Shown: positions 14,907 to 17,824 of the stretch, piece after piece | How the letters are laid out: each line of letters starts with the position of its first letter | Position numbering within the stretch: the stretch's first letter is position 1 | Assembly: GCA_937141405.1 (NCBI GenBank) | Contig: CAKZQQ010000005.1 | Span: 434,001 to 498,000, forward strand | Source of the DNA: an uncultured Campylobacterota bacterium | GTDB lineage: Bacteria; Campylobacterota; Campylobacteria; Campylobacterales; Sulfurovaceae | Direction: 5' to 3' | Length of the DNA: 64,000 nucleotides | Notes under the pieces: model-generated | What the model saw: only the letters and a program-made list of their open reading frames with translations | Told to the model about the DNA's origin: nothing | Databases searched by the model: none | Program-made: the position numbers and the translations under genes

Positions 14907-15181
14907 TTATTACCAACCCGATATATAGTTTGAGTTTTTGATACAGTGATTTTGTTCATAGGCAAGGCGGATTTTTGCAGGACTAGCCTTAGCTAATTCA
15001 AAAAAATCTAACACAGCCTTATGAGCAAAGGTGCTGTACCCGACGGGGAGAACAATAAAAGGCAATCTGCAAACAAAAAAATCTTTGAATTCCCTACGGG
15101 GAGTACTGTAGATTTCTTTACTCACATTCCACCTTTTCTTGCTCTCTCAAAACTTCAAACTATATATCGGGTTGGTAATTA
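14907..15181. mobile_element. MITE-like element with 24-bp terminal inverted repeats
   Basis: Perfect inverted repeats at 14910-14933 and 15155-15178 begin TTACCAACCCGATATATAG and match over all 24 bases, then over eight more with two mismatches. They bracket a 269-base element flanked on both sides by TTA (14907-14909 and 15179-15181), a plausible 3-bp target duplication. No transposase is encoded. The interior contains a 71-codon minus-strand frame (14910-15125) whose stop lies in the left repeat, and two CTCCCCGT-GGG motifs. It lies between the dapD ribosome-binding site and any upstream promoter. Confidence 0.8.
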
Positions 15182-15226
15182 GGTTATTATACTTTGATTT
15201 ATTTAAAATCCAAAGTAAACAAAGGA

Positions 15227-15232
15227 TATAAT
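15227..15232 (+). promoter_or_regulatory. -10 box (TATAAT) upstream of the TonB-receptor leader
   Basis: Perfect TATAAT with six bases (CTTCCC) between it and the ATG of the small ORF at 15239, the same geometry as at the BaiN-type gene. A T-rich upstream stretch replaces a -35 box. The transcript probably starts at or next to the ATG, giving a leaderless ORF and a leader of about 200 bases before the receptor gene. Confidence 0.55.
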
Positions 15233-15238
15233 CTTCCC

Positions 15239-15403
15239 ATGAAATACCTCAAAGGCTTTAGAAGACGATACTTCTCATTGGCGATTATAGCGCTCTACTC
15301 TACGCTCTATAAACTGTGTCGTCTAGATAGCAATTATCAGTATCATAGATTGGCCTTTAAACTCCAAGAAAATAAAACCTCCCCTCCCTTTTTGATCTAT
15401 TAA
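15239..15403 (+). CDS. putative leader ORF upstream of the TonB receptor
   Basis: 54 codons from ATG 15239 to TAA 15401-15403. The product is basic at the start (KYLKGFRRRYF), has a short hydrophobic stretch (SLAIIALYSTLY) and many Tyr and Leu. I do not recognise it. Its last six codons form the left arm of a stem that would hide the ribosome-binding site of the receptor gene, so it may be a regulatory upstream ORF rather than a functional protein. A longer frame from 15194 exists but would start upstream of the -10 box. Confidence 0.4.
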   Translation: MKYLKGFRRRYFSLAIIALYSTLYKLCRLDSNYQYHRLAFKLQENKTSPPFLIY

Positions 15404-15430
15404 CTCATACAAAATTCAAATCAAAAAGGG
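15386..15430 (+). promoter_or_regulatory. stem that would sequester the TonB-receptor Shine-Dalgarno site
   Basis: CCCTTTTTGAT (15386-15396) is perfectly complementary to ATCAAAAAGGG (15420-15430). The right arm contains the ribosome-binding site (AAAAAGGG) of the receptor gene at 15436; the left arm is the end of the 54-codon ORF. A ribosome reaching the stop at 15403 would cover the left arm and free the site. The logic is inferred; the pairing is seen. Confidence 0.5.
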
Positions 15431-15435
15431 AAAAA

Positions 15436-17265
15436 ATGGGCAACAAGCCACGCAACATATCAATCATATTGCTACTTCTAACAGCAATGCTACCGGCTCA
15501 GGATATCACACTTGGAAATATAGAGATAATCTCGACCAATAAGACAAAACAAAAAGCAACAAAGACAACTGCAGATATTGATGTTATCACAAGTGAAGAT
15601 ATCAGACAAAATGGATACATATCCATCGTTGATGCACTATCAAAGGCAACGGGTATTAATATCTCTCAAAATGGGGGGATAGGACAAAAGAGTTCGTTTT
15701 TTCTAAGAGGGATGGATAGTGGAAAAATCTTGGCTCTTGTTGATGGAATGAGACTCAATGACCCCTCAACTACAAATAACACATCCTTGATTGAATTTCT
15801 GCCTATATCCAATGTTGAACAGATAGAGATCGTAAGAGGTGGAAGCTCAAGTGTATGGGGAGCAAATGCAAGCGCAGGTGTTATAAACATCATAACAAAA
15901 AAAGCCCTCAAAGATGGGGTAAGCGGAAGCATAGGAGTAGAAGGCGGAAGCCATGGAACAAAGGGGAGTGATCTCTCTCTGTTTTATAAAAACGGTAAAT
16001 TAAATGCAAAATTACTTGGTTCTTATTTGGATACGAACGGTATATCGGCCTTAGCTCCGCAAAACTCCGAAAAAGATGGATATACCAATAAAAATCTAAC
16101 CGCAGGCATAGGGTATGATTTTACTGATACCACCAAAGCTTCGATTGCCATAATCAAAACAAAAACCAAAGGTGATTACGATGATGAGTATAACAGTAAT
16201 GGCGCAAATGATGATTATAGTCATTTTATAACCGATAGTACAAATATAAGTGGGTCTCTTTCAACAAAAATAGGTGCAATAGACTCTGTCTTCAACGCAA
16301 CACACGGAAAATATAAAAGAGAGTATTTTACAACATCTTTGTGGGGCGATGGAGACAATAGATACGAAGCCACAACAGATGAATATTCCCTTATCAATTC
16401 GTATGCTCATAAGTTTGGAAAAAGCGTTTTAGGATTTGAGTATAAAGAGATTGATGGTTTTAACCAGTACAATACATACGCACCGACGGATGGAAGTTTC
16501 ACGAACAAAGGTATATTTTTATCCAACAGCATACACCCAACTGATACGCTGCTTATCGAGGCAAATCTAAGATATGATGATTTTGATAAGTTTGACGGGA
16601 AAGCAACCTATAAACTAGGTGCAAAATATAAACTATCTGATGATTTTACATTTAAAGCAAACTACTACACCTCGCTCAATGCACCCTCTGTGTATCAGCT
16701 TGCAAATATACTCTCCGGCGAAACGCTCAAGCCAAGTTTTGTAAAAGGGTATGATGCCTCTTTTTCTTATAAAGATTATCTCTCTTTAACCTATTTTGAT
16801 AATAGCATACAAGATGATATAGTCTACGACAATACTCTTTGGGGATATAAAAACAATACGGCTGATGAAAATATAAGAGGTATTGAGATATCAGCAAGCA
16901 CTCCAACTCTTTTGGATAGATTTATAATGAGAGCAAACTATACGCACCTGCTTGATATGAACGATGAAAGCGGGACACCACTTTATAATAGAGCACAAGA
17001 TGAACTCAATGGGTGGCTGGAGTATTTCTATGATGCAAATACCATTGCAAGTCTCAATATACATTATGTTGGAGAGAGGGTATCGTATGGTGATATGCCA
17101 AGCGGAAACTATACTGTTTGGAATCTGAATTTAACCAAAAAATACAGTGATCATTTTGATATGGGATTGCATATTAAAAACCTATTTGACAAAGAGTATC
17201 AATCTATTTATGGCTATAACATGGAAGGCATGAGCATCTATGCTACAATAAAATATTCATTTTAG
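15436..17265 (+). CDS. TonB-dependent outer-membrane receptor (BtuB-like)
   Basis: 609 residues. Signal peptide about 1-21, ending LPAQD. The plug domain (about 40-155) contains ITSEDIRQNGYISIVDALSK, FFLRGMDSGKILALVDGMRLND and IEIVRGGSSSVWGANASAGVINI, typical of BtuB/Cir-type receptors; the rest is a 22-strand barrel ending in the outer-membrane signature ATIKYSF. It should bind a large scarce ligand such as cobalamin or a siderophore and use ExbB/ExbD/TonB energy. No cobalamin riboswitch was seen in the leader, so the ligand is open. Confidence 0.9.
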   Translation: MGNKPRNISIILLLLTAMLPAQDITLGNIEIISTNKTKQKATKTTADIDVITSEDIRQNGYISIVDALSKATGINISQNGGIGQKSSFFLRGMDSGKILALVDGMRLNDPSTTNNTSLIEFLPISNVEQIEIVRGGSSSVWGANASAGVINIITKKALKDGVSGSIGVEGGSHGTKGSDLSLFYKNGKLNAKLLGSYLDTNGISALAPQNSEKDGYTNKNLTAGIGYDFTDTTKASIAIIKTKTKGDYDDEYNSNGANDDYSHFITDSTNISGSLSTKIGAIDSVFNATHGKYKREYFTTSLWGDGDNRYEATTDEYSLINSYAHKFGKSVLGFEYKEIDGFNQYNTYAPTDGSFTNKGIFLSNSIHPTDTLLIEANLRYDDFDKFDGKATYKLGAKYKLSDDFTFKANYYTSLNAPSVYQLANILSGETLKPSFVKGYDASFSYKDYLSLTYFDNSIQDDIVYDNTLWGYKNNTADENIRGIEISASTPTLLDRFIMRANYTHLLDMNDESGTPLYNRAQDELNGWLEYFYDANTIASLNIHYVGERVSYGDMPSGNYTVWNLNLTKKYSDHFDMGLHIKNLFDKEYQSIYGYNMEGMSIYATIKYSF

Positions 17266-17272
17266 GAAAAAC

Positions 17273-17824
17273 ATGCAAATCATAAAAGAATACTTTATAG
17301 CCTATAAATTTGCAAATGCACTCTTTACAGGTCTTTCGATCGGAACGATAATAAGCATCTACACACCTCTTCATCCCTCTATCTACTCTTTAGGAGGGGT
17401 TGCGCTTGCACTTGGTATGCTTGTCGTTGCGAGGATGTATGATAGGCTCTTTACAATCGAATGGTTTTATAGGATAACACTTTTTGTTGAGCTCGTCTTA
17501 CTAGCTATGGTGCTCTATTTTTTGAGCTCTAACATCTCTTATGAGACAGCACTTTTGATCTACATAGGCTATCAGCTCACTTTTCTTTTTGGAAGCTACC
17601 TTGTTCGTGCCGAGACGATTTTTCTCAATCAAACAAAAACACTAAGCGATATCGATAGCTTTAAGCAGATAGGCTCAATTTTTGGCATGGTAGCCTCCTA
17701 TCTCTTCTACAAACACTACGATAAACTTACCAATATCGAGCAAGTTTACAATATCCACTACCCGCTTTTAGCAGTGCAGATAATAGTAATCTTCTTTGTT
17801 CTAAAAAGTTTTGTGAGAAGATAG
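17273..17824 (+). CDS. integral membrane protein of unknown function
   Basis: 183 residues with about five or six transmembrane helices. Residues VVARMYDRLFTIEWFYR recall half of an MFS-type transporter, but the protein is too short for a complete one. It follows the TonB receptor by seven bases and ends one base before the convergent bactofilin gene, so it is probably co-transcribed with the receptor and might take part in the same uptake route. Confidence 0.65.
   Translation: MQIIKEYFIAYKFANALFTGLSIGTIISIYTPLHPSIYSLGGVALALGMLVVARMYDRLFTIEWFYRITLFVELVLLAMVLYFLSSNISYETALLIYIGYQLTFLFGSYLVRAETIFLNQTKTLSDIDSFKQIGSIFGMVASYLFYKHYDKLTNIEQVYNIHYPLLAVQIIVIFFVLKSFVRR

Follow-up and report, generated by a model that had tools for sequence, protein, structure and literature searches.

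A gene for a BtuB-like TonB-dependent receptor in an uncultured Campylobacterota bacterium is preceded by a short open reading frame whose last codons are complementary to the ribosome-binding site of the receptor. The question is whether this reading frame is a regulatory leader and, if so, to what signal it responds. The original prediction, made on the 64,000-nucleotide stretch of DNA analysed here (the window), described a leaderless reading frame of 54 codons and proposed that its translation to the stop codon opens a stem that hides the receptor Shine-Dalgarno (SD) sequence. The positions given for the TATAAT hexamer, six bases 5′ of the ATG, and for the 54 codons all hold (Table 1), and the second stem arm does include the receptor SD, AAGGGA. 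The two arms are perfectly complementary as described, over 12 bp rather than the 11 bp first reported. The description was nevertheless too narrow, as the locus belongs to a leader-peptide regulon that spans the phylum. It missed that conservation resides in the peptide sequence, in which a Pro-Pro is invariant, and that this sequence is met again ahead of cbi and metE genes.

Table 1. Features of the leader and receptor locus (window positions)
Feature	Position	Strand	Remarks
−10 box TATAAT	15227..15232	+	6 nt 5′ of leader ATG 15239; predicted start of a leaderless mRNA
Leader-peptide gene, 54 codons, MKYLKGFRRRYFSLAIIALYSTLYKLCRLDSNYQYHRLAFKLQENKTSPPFLIY	15239..15403	+	Conserved family A1; TAA stop at 15401-15403
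Pro49-Pro50 codons (CCT CCC)	15383..15388	+	Proposed pause site; C-rich, hence also anti-SD
5′ arm of SD-hiding stem, end of leader ORF	15385..15396	+	12 bp, 100% complementary to 15420-15431
3′ arm of stem	15420..15431	+	Contains receptor SD AAGGGA, 15426-15431
BtuB-like TonB-dependent receptor, proposed controlled gene	15436..17265	+	Pfam Plug and TonB_dep_Rec
183-aa membrane protein	17273..17824	+	3′ of receptor in many relatives; no Pfam/NCBIfam match

A conserved family of small proteins

The receptor was located in genomes of the same genus and the upstream regions were then read. Relatives with a well-matched receptor encode a leader of the type MKHLKGFGNRYFSLAIIALYSTLFKLCRNDSNYQYHN..IFKTPKTSPP, and their genes differ at many synonymous positions. 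A profile built from ten leaders matches 127 of the 175 genomes in the same taxonomic family and also further families of the order; a scan with taxon names yielded 78 loci, mostly of Sulfurovum, together with Arcobacteraceae, Nitratifractor and others. The median Ka/Ks of the leader is 0.089 (788 pairs with 8–30% nucleotide difference).

The Pro-Pro is found in all 101 members, 1–13 residues before the stop codon, a count that is somewhat favoured because part of the set was gathered with a pattern that contains Pro-Pro. In some leaders of family f16 the stop codon directly follows Pro-Pro. The N-terminus is a hydrophobic, signal-like segment; Cys27 is not conserved in every member of the 54-aa class. 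The family can be defined by an open reading frame of 54 or 115 aa, an N-terminal motif [KR]G[FYH]xx[KR]YFxL, a Pro-Pro within approximately 20 codons of the stop, and a position upstream of btuB, cbi or metE. The window reading frame has the N-terminal motif, the Pro-Pro near the stop and the location upstream of a BtuB-like receptor gene. A Pfam and NCBIfam search with the 54-aa leader gave no model at cut-off. The window reading frame is a conserved small-protein gene of a previously unnamed family. An alternative TTG start at 15194, which would give a protein of 69 aa, was rejected because family members begin at the position of ATG 15239.

In other families, the leader N-terminal motif KGFRGKYFSLAAI forms the N-terminus of long TonB receptors (L072 1501-3075, minus strand; L075 1501-3090, plus strand; L166 1748-3664, plus strand), and some of these also have an EE[ST]PP-like stretch at the N-terminus, which gives the impression that the leader and the receptor N-terminus are related or can replace each other. 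The recurrence of the segment in these receptors is a reason why the signal-like N-terminus of the leader may matter.

Promoter and neighbouring genes

A −10 hexamer lies exactly 6 nt before the leader ATG in 49 and 7 nt before it in 29 distinct relatives, together 78 of 101. It is much rarer at other positions, and comparable 5-nt windows further upstream score 10%, which is background. Most of the remaining members have a weaker hexamer at the same place or an ATG directly after an upstream stop codon. An SD sequence is absent before the ATG in 96 of the 101 members. Considering the −10 spacing and the missing SD, the leader mRNA is probably leaderless.

Just 5′ of the promoter in the window, at 14909-15179, is a 271-bp MITE-like element with 38-nt terminal inverted repeats that are 89% complementary. 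A second copy (77%) is found elsewhere in the genome (G000:C8:46943-47211), and in the relative L002 seemingly only the left end is present at the corresponding place.

The gene that follows the leader is a BtuB-like receptor at nearly all loci with enough sequence, one exception being L150, with a more distant TonB receptor. The distance from leader stop to receptor start is 29–311 nt (median 107 nt). At many loci the 183-aa membrane protein comes next, and it is probably part of the same B12 unit as the receptor. The window receptor has BtuB as its best solved relative (9e-44), and its top NCBIfam match is TIGR01779 TonB-B12 (1.4e-77, below the curated cut-off). At loci without a receptor, the leader is followed by CbiM, CbiK, a CbiL-like tetrapyrrole methylase and CbiC, i.e. 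a cobalamin operon, as identified with Pfam.

Two loci have a second leader copy a few kb 3′ of the receptor, followed by a cbiM-like gene (L104 9502-9669; L124 9693-9851). In L002, L004, L006 and L009, dispersed hairpin-like repeats of the GTCATTCC...GGAATGAC type are situated between leader stop and receptor and widen the gap.

Probable cobalamin control and the riboswitch

The cobalamin riboswitch is the textbook means of B12 gene control in bacteria, and btuB, btuFDC, the cbi operon and metE are its standard targets. The possibility that a riboswitch had been overlooked in the original prediction was rejected, as RF00174 is found neither in the window nor in the other genomes of the phylum: in a covariance-model search with strict filters, which may lose weak matches, none of 298 Campylobacterota genomes had RF00174 above the gathering score. 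The same search was positive in 8 of 14 control genomes. In the window, the Rfam models gave nothing over threshold apart from one tRNA. Since the leader has the target set of the riboswitch and RF00174 was not found, B12 control without a riboswitch, an idea raised at the outset, is strongly favoured. The Campylobacterota probably detect B12 in another way that is protein-based.

The 115-aa leaders, metE and MetH

Weak profile matches in other families revealed a second class of approximately 115 aa, which shares the N-terminus and has CHC...FRRTGVHPP or a similar sequence at its C-terminus. A Pfam search with this form gave no match at cut-off. The first examples were all located before metE except L171, which is before a TonB receptor. 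Phylum-wide, 87 of the 107 matches that include the C-terminal part are 45–295 nt before metE. Other matches examined precede metE (L166, L236, L245-L250) or a TonB receptor gene that is commonly accompanied by btuF, btuD and btuC; one match is split between contigs. A metE leader is also present in the genome from which the window comes (G000:C6:87351-87677).

The metE product is the B12-independent methionine synthase and MetH the B12-dependent enzyme. B12 control of metE is sensible only where MetH is present, and co-occurrence of leader and MetH is read as a link to B12. Of 201 genomes with a good metE match, 87 have MetH and 114 do not; the former include 76 with and 11 without the metE leader, the latter one with and 113 without. 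A Fisher p-value for this association overstates the evidence because the genomes are related. Within family f18 a contrast nevertheless exists (7 of 8 genomes, the exception having neither leader nor MetH). Ten of the 11 genomes with MetE and MetH that have no leader belong to f13. The one MetH-less genome that does have the leader (G012) was considered as a possible case of decay; its leader is intact.

A C-terminal-only version of the leader precedes metE in 19 f10 genomes without MetH. An example is L207 982-1245, with similar f10 loci in L209 and L210 (no MetH), where a reading frame of up to 88 codons before metE has only the C-terminal part, HCNCIF...RRSGCHPP.

Pairing between leader end and SD

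At the window locus the arms of the stem are separated by a loop of 23 nt, and the stem is present in both the minimum free energy and the centroid folds of the leader region. The 248-nt leader as a whole has a folding z of only −1.75 relative to shuffled sequences. An 11-bp perfect complement of the SD region within 60 nt upstream occurs at 1 of the 214 SD-preceded ATGs on both strands of the window. The leader-SD duplex, at −16.9 kcal/mol, is the strongest among 75 receptor loci. In folding computations the probability that the window SD is unpaired rises from 0.00 in the free RNA to 0.85 with a ribosome placed at Pro-Pro.

The exact stem was rejected as a conserved element. Distances and sequences vary, and the pairing relation alone is kept. 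To regard the exact stem as the conserved element was a mistake; it belongs to this genome only, and the reading frame is real and probably leaderless throughout the family. Several close relatives have no strong stem. The original prediction named relatives with the receptor and without both reading frame and arms as evidence that would speak against it; instead, L002-L005, the nearest relatives, retain reading frame and receptor and have no comparably strong stem.

The pairing relation is seen when each leader end is compared with the SD of its own locus and with those of others. Native duplexes are stronger than swapped ones at receptor loci (n = 75, z −7.9; 0/20000 swaps) and at metE loci (n = 44, z −6.9; 0/20000 swaps), and the effect is not significant at 14 cbiM junctions. 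Base composition and relatedness were examined as sources of the signal and rejected. GC-stratified swaps leave z values of −6.4 and −5.6 in the receptor and metE sets, leads shifted by 33–60 nt give z between −0.1 and −1.3, 37 ordinary adjacent gene pairs display no excess of native over swapped pairing, and stringent de-duplication (at least 20 of 60 positions different) leaves z at about −6 in both sets. A compensatory change is found in sister loci: L148 has CCUUGUUUGU/ACAAACAAGG and L146 has CCUUGUUUAU/AUAAACAAGG. Comparison of related genomes, which had been suggested as a check, thus finds the reading frame and compensatory changes between leader and SD, and does not find the 12-bp stem itself.

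With a ribosome placed at Pro-Pro, the probability that the SD is free becomes higher by 0.31 on average at 64 receptor loci, versus 0.04 in dinucleotide shuffles, and the density of SD pairing partners peaks at the second Pro codon. When receptor and metE junctions are averaged, the downstream SD is therefore hidden by pairing that a ribosome at Pro-Pro would open. Pairing is clear in 33 of the 64 receptor loci, about half, and hence another mode, e.g. Rho-dependent attenuation, may act elsewhere.

Proposed mechanism

It is likely that the leader peptide controls the BtuB-like receptor in step with corrinoid supply, as a member of a Campylobacterota-wide family that replaces the riboswitch for btuB, btuFDC, cbi and metE. 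The computed support consists of protein conservation, the −10 position, the gene neighbourhood, the absence of the riboswitch, MetH co-occurrence and leader-SD co-adaptation; from these we infer arrest at Pro-Pro, the corrinoid as sensed ligand and the direction of the effect.

In the proposed scheme, transcription would begin at or next to the ATG and the peptide would be made from a leaderless mRNA. The last leader codons, around the invariant Pro-Pro, would act as an anti-SD for the downstream gene. At low B12, when the genes are needed, the ribosome would pause at Pro-Pro and cover the anti-SD, leaving the receptor SD free. With B12 present the pause would be relieved, the ribosome would depart and the SD would be hidden. 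Coupling of leader and receptor translation, as first envisaged, stands in outline. A regulated pause near Pro-Pro is more probable than simple read-through to the stop codon, given that a peptide with an invariant Pro-Pro is conserved and recurs before cbi and metE genes.

As to how the pause might be set, it is tentatively suggested that the nascent leader chain recognises the corrinoid in the ribosome tunnel and switches the Pro-Pro arrest on or off, in place of the riboswitch, for uptake, synthesis and metE. Counting against arrest, the motifs are K-T-S/A-P-P, R-T-G-x-H-P-P and I-S-P-P, and not the RAPP/RGPP motif that has been tested.

The phylum includes Campylobacter, Helicobacter and major hydrothermal-vent chemolithotrophs, and the leader would explain its B12 regulation. 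If true, a vitamin would join the few signals that leader peptides are known to read, and the system would be a compact and testable one.

Alternative explanations

The leader might act through ribosome occupancy that blocks Rho-dependent termination, as CruR does 5′ of a TonB-dependent transporter (PMC9426467), and not through SD release. The median stop-to-start gap and the loci without a strong stem are in keeping with such a role. The significant leader-SD co-adaptation in the receptor and metE sets speaks against it, and we consider this rather unlikely as the sole mechanism; the two could coexist.

An equally improbable alternative is that the leader senses a signal other than B12, i.e. 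cobalt or another metal via Cys/His, methionine supply or Sec translocation. The 115-aa class has Cys/His motifs, CHC among them, the N-terminal segment is signal-like, CutF and CruR provide copper precedents, and the C-terminal-only metE leaders are from f10 genomes that have no MetH. Against these stand the targets, which are the B12 regulon, and the variability of Cys27 in the 54-aa class. Furthermore, the metE leader tracks MetH, which is not expected of a pure metal or Sec sensor.

Less probable still is a stable small membrane protein for corrinoid uptake or handling, co-expressed with its neighbours, with regulation by an unknown repressor and SD pairing as mere translational coupling. 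Conservation extends over the whole protein length, and the hydrophobic N-terminal segment and the motif shared with the signal-peptide region of long TonB receptors are what such a protein would have. The family, however, is found ahead of the gene for a cytosolic enzyme (metE), ahead of an outer-membrane receptor gene and ahead of a biosynthesis operon. This is the pattern of a common regulon, not of a machine. In all members Pro-Pro is near the stop, and the leader mRNA has co-adapted with the downstream gene's SD.

That an ordinary upstream reading frame and a fortuitous stem came together by chance has a negligible probability: the closest relatives do lack the 12-bp exact stem, but conservation with its Ka/Ks rules out a chance reading frame, native-versus-swapped duplex energies with their controls rule out a fortuitous stem at the family level, and promoter anchoring and neighbourhood argue likewise. 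Control of the B12 genes by the leader peptide remains the preferred reading.

Comparison with known systems

Literature searches, with subscription papers and preprints outside their scope, yielded no description of an arrest or leader peptide linked to cobalamin. In the Campylobacter jejuni translatome, leaders LeuL, TrpL and MetL are described, and the main text of that work has nothing on metE or cobalamin (PMC11955535).

With respect to target genes, the leader is like the cobalamin riboswitch RF00174 in that btuB/btuFDC, the cbi operon and metE are common to both, and unlike it in that the conserved element is a translated peptide. The Mycobacterium tuberculosis metE B12 riboswitch also places metE under B12 and has an upstream reading frame (PMC11260477); it is an RNA aptamer, and none was detected here.

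SecM, ApdA and ApdP resemble the present family in being short leaders of secretory or membrane type, in which a motif with Pro lies only a few residues from the stop codon and the regulated gene follows (PMC10987492, PMC10951233, PMC12992588). They differ in targets (secA, secDF and yidC) and in motif, which is R[AG][PG]P and not KT[SA]PP, RTGxHPP or ISPP. The SecM/RAPP-type motif (R/Q/H)-(A/G)-(P/G)-(P/G) is absent from the leaders, and the window peptide ends KTSPPFLIY. Identity with a known arrest-peptide family was thus rejected, as neither the motif nor the profiles match. RAPP-like arrest peptides have a wide distribution, and some are also found before TonB receptors (PMC10987492, PMC12992588).

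A further system is CruR (DUF2946)-bfrG of Bordetella pertussis, where a small reading frame is upstream of a TonB-dependent transporter and a C-terminal Pro-Pro motif has been proposed to arrest the ribosome until ligand binds (PMC9426467). CruR differs in that it is 145 aa long, belongs to DUF2946, responds to copper and works with RAPP and Rho-dependent termination. RAPP was not seen in the present leaders, and neither form has a Pfam match at cut-off, DUF2946 included.

CutF-cutO of Rhodobacter capsulatus is also similar (PMC9973294). CutF is a small upstream protein with an N-terminal signal segment and a Pro-rich C-terminus, and it senses copper by means of a stem-loop that sequesters the downstream SD and unfolds when translation is slowed. 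It uses CxxxC for copper and controls a multicopper oxidase, whereas the targets here are B12 genes; the present leader is shorter and probably leaderless, and no sequence relation between the two was found. The simplest reading would be a SecM/CutF-like leader, in which a paused ribosome would cover the anti-SD and the next gene would be translated.
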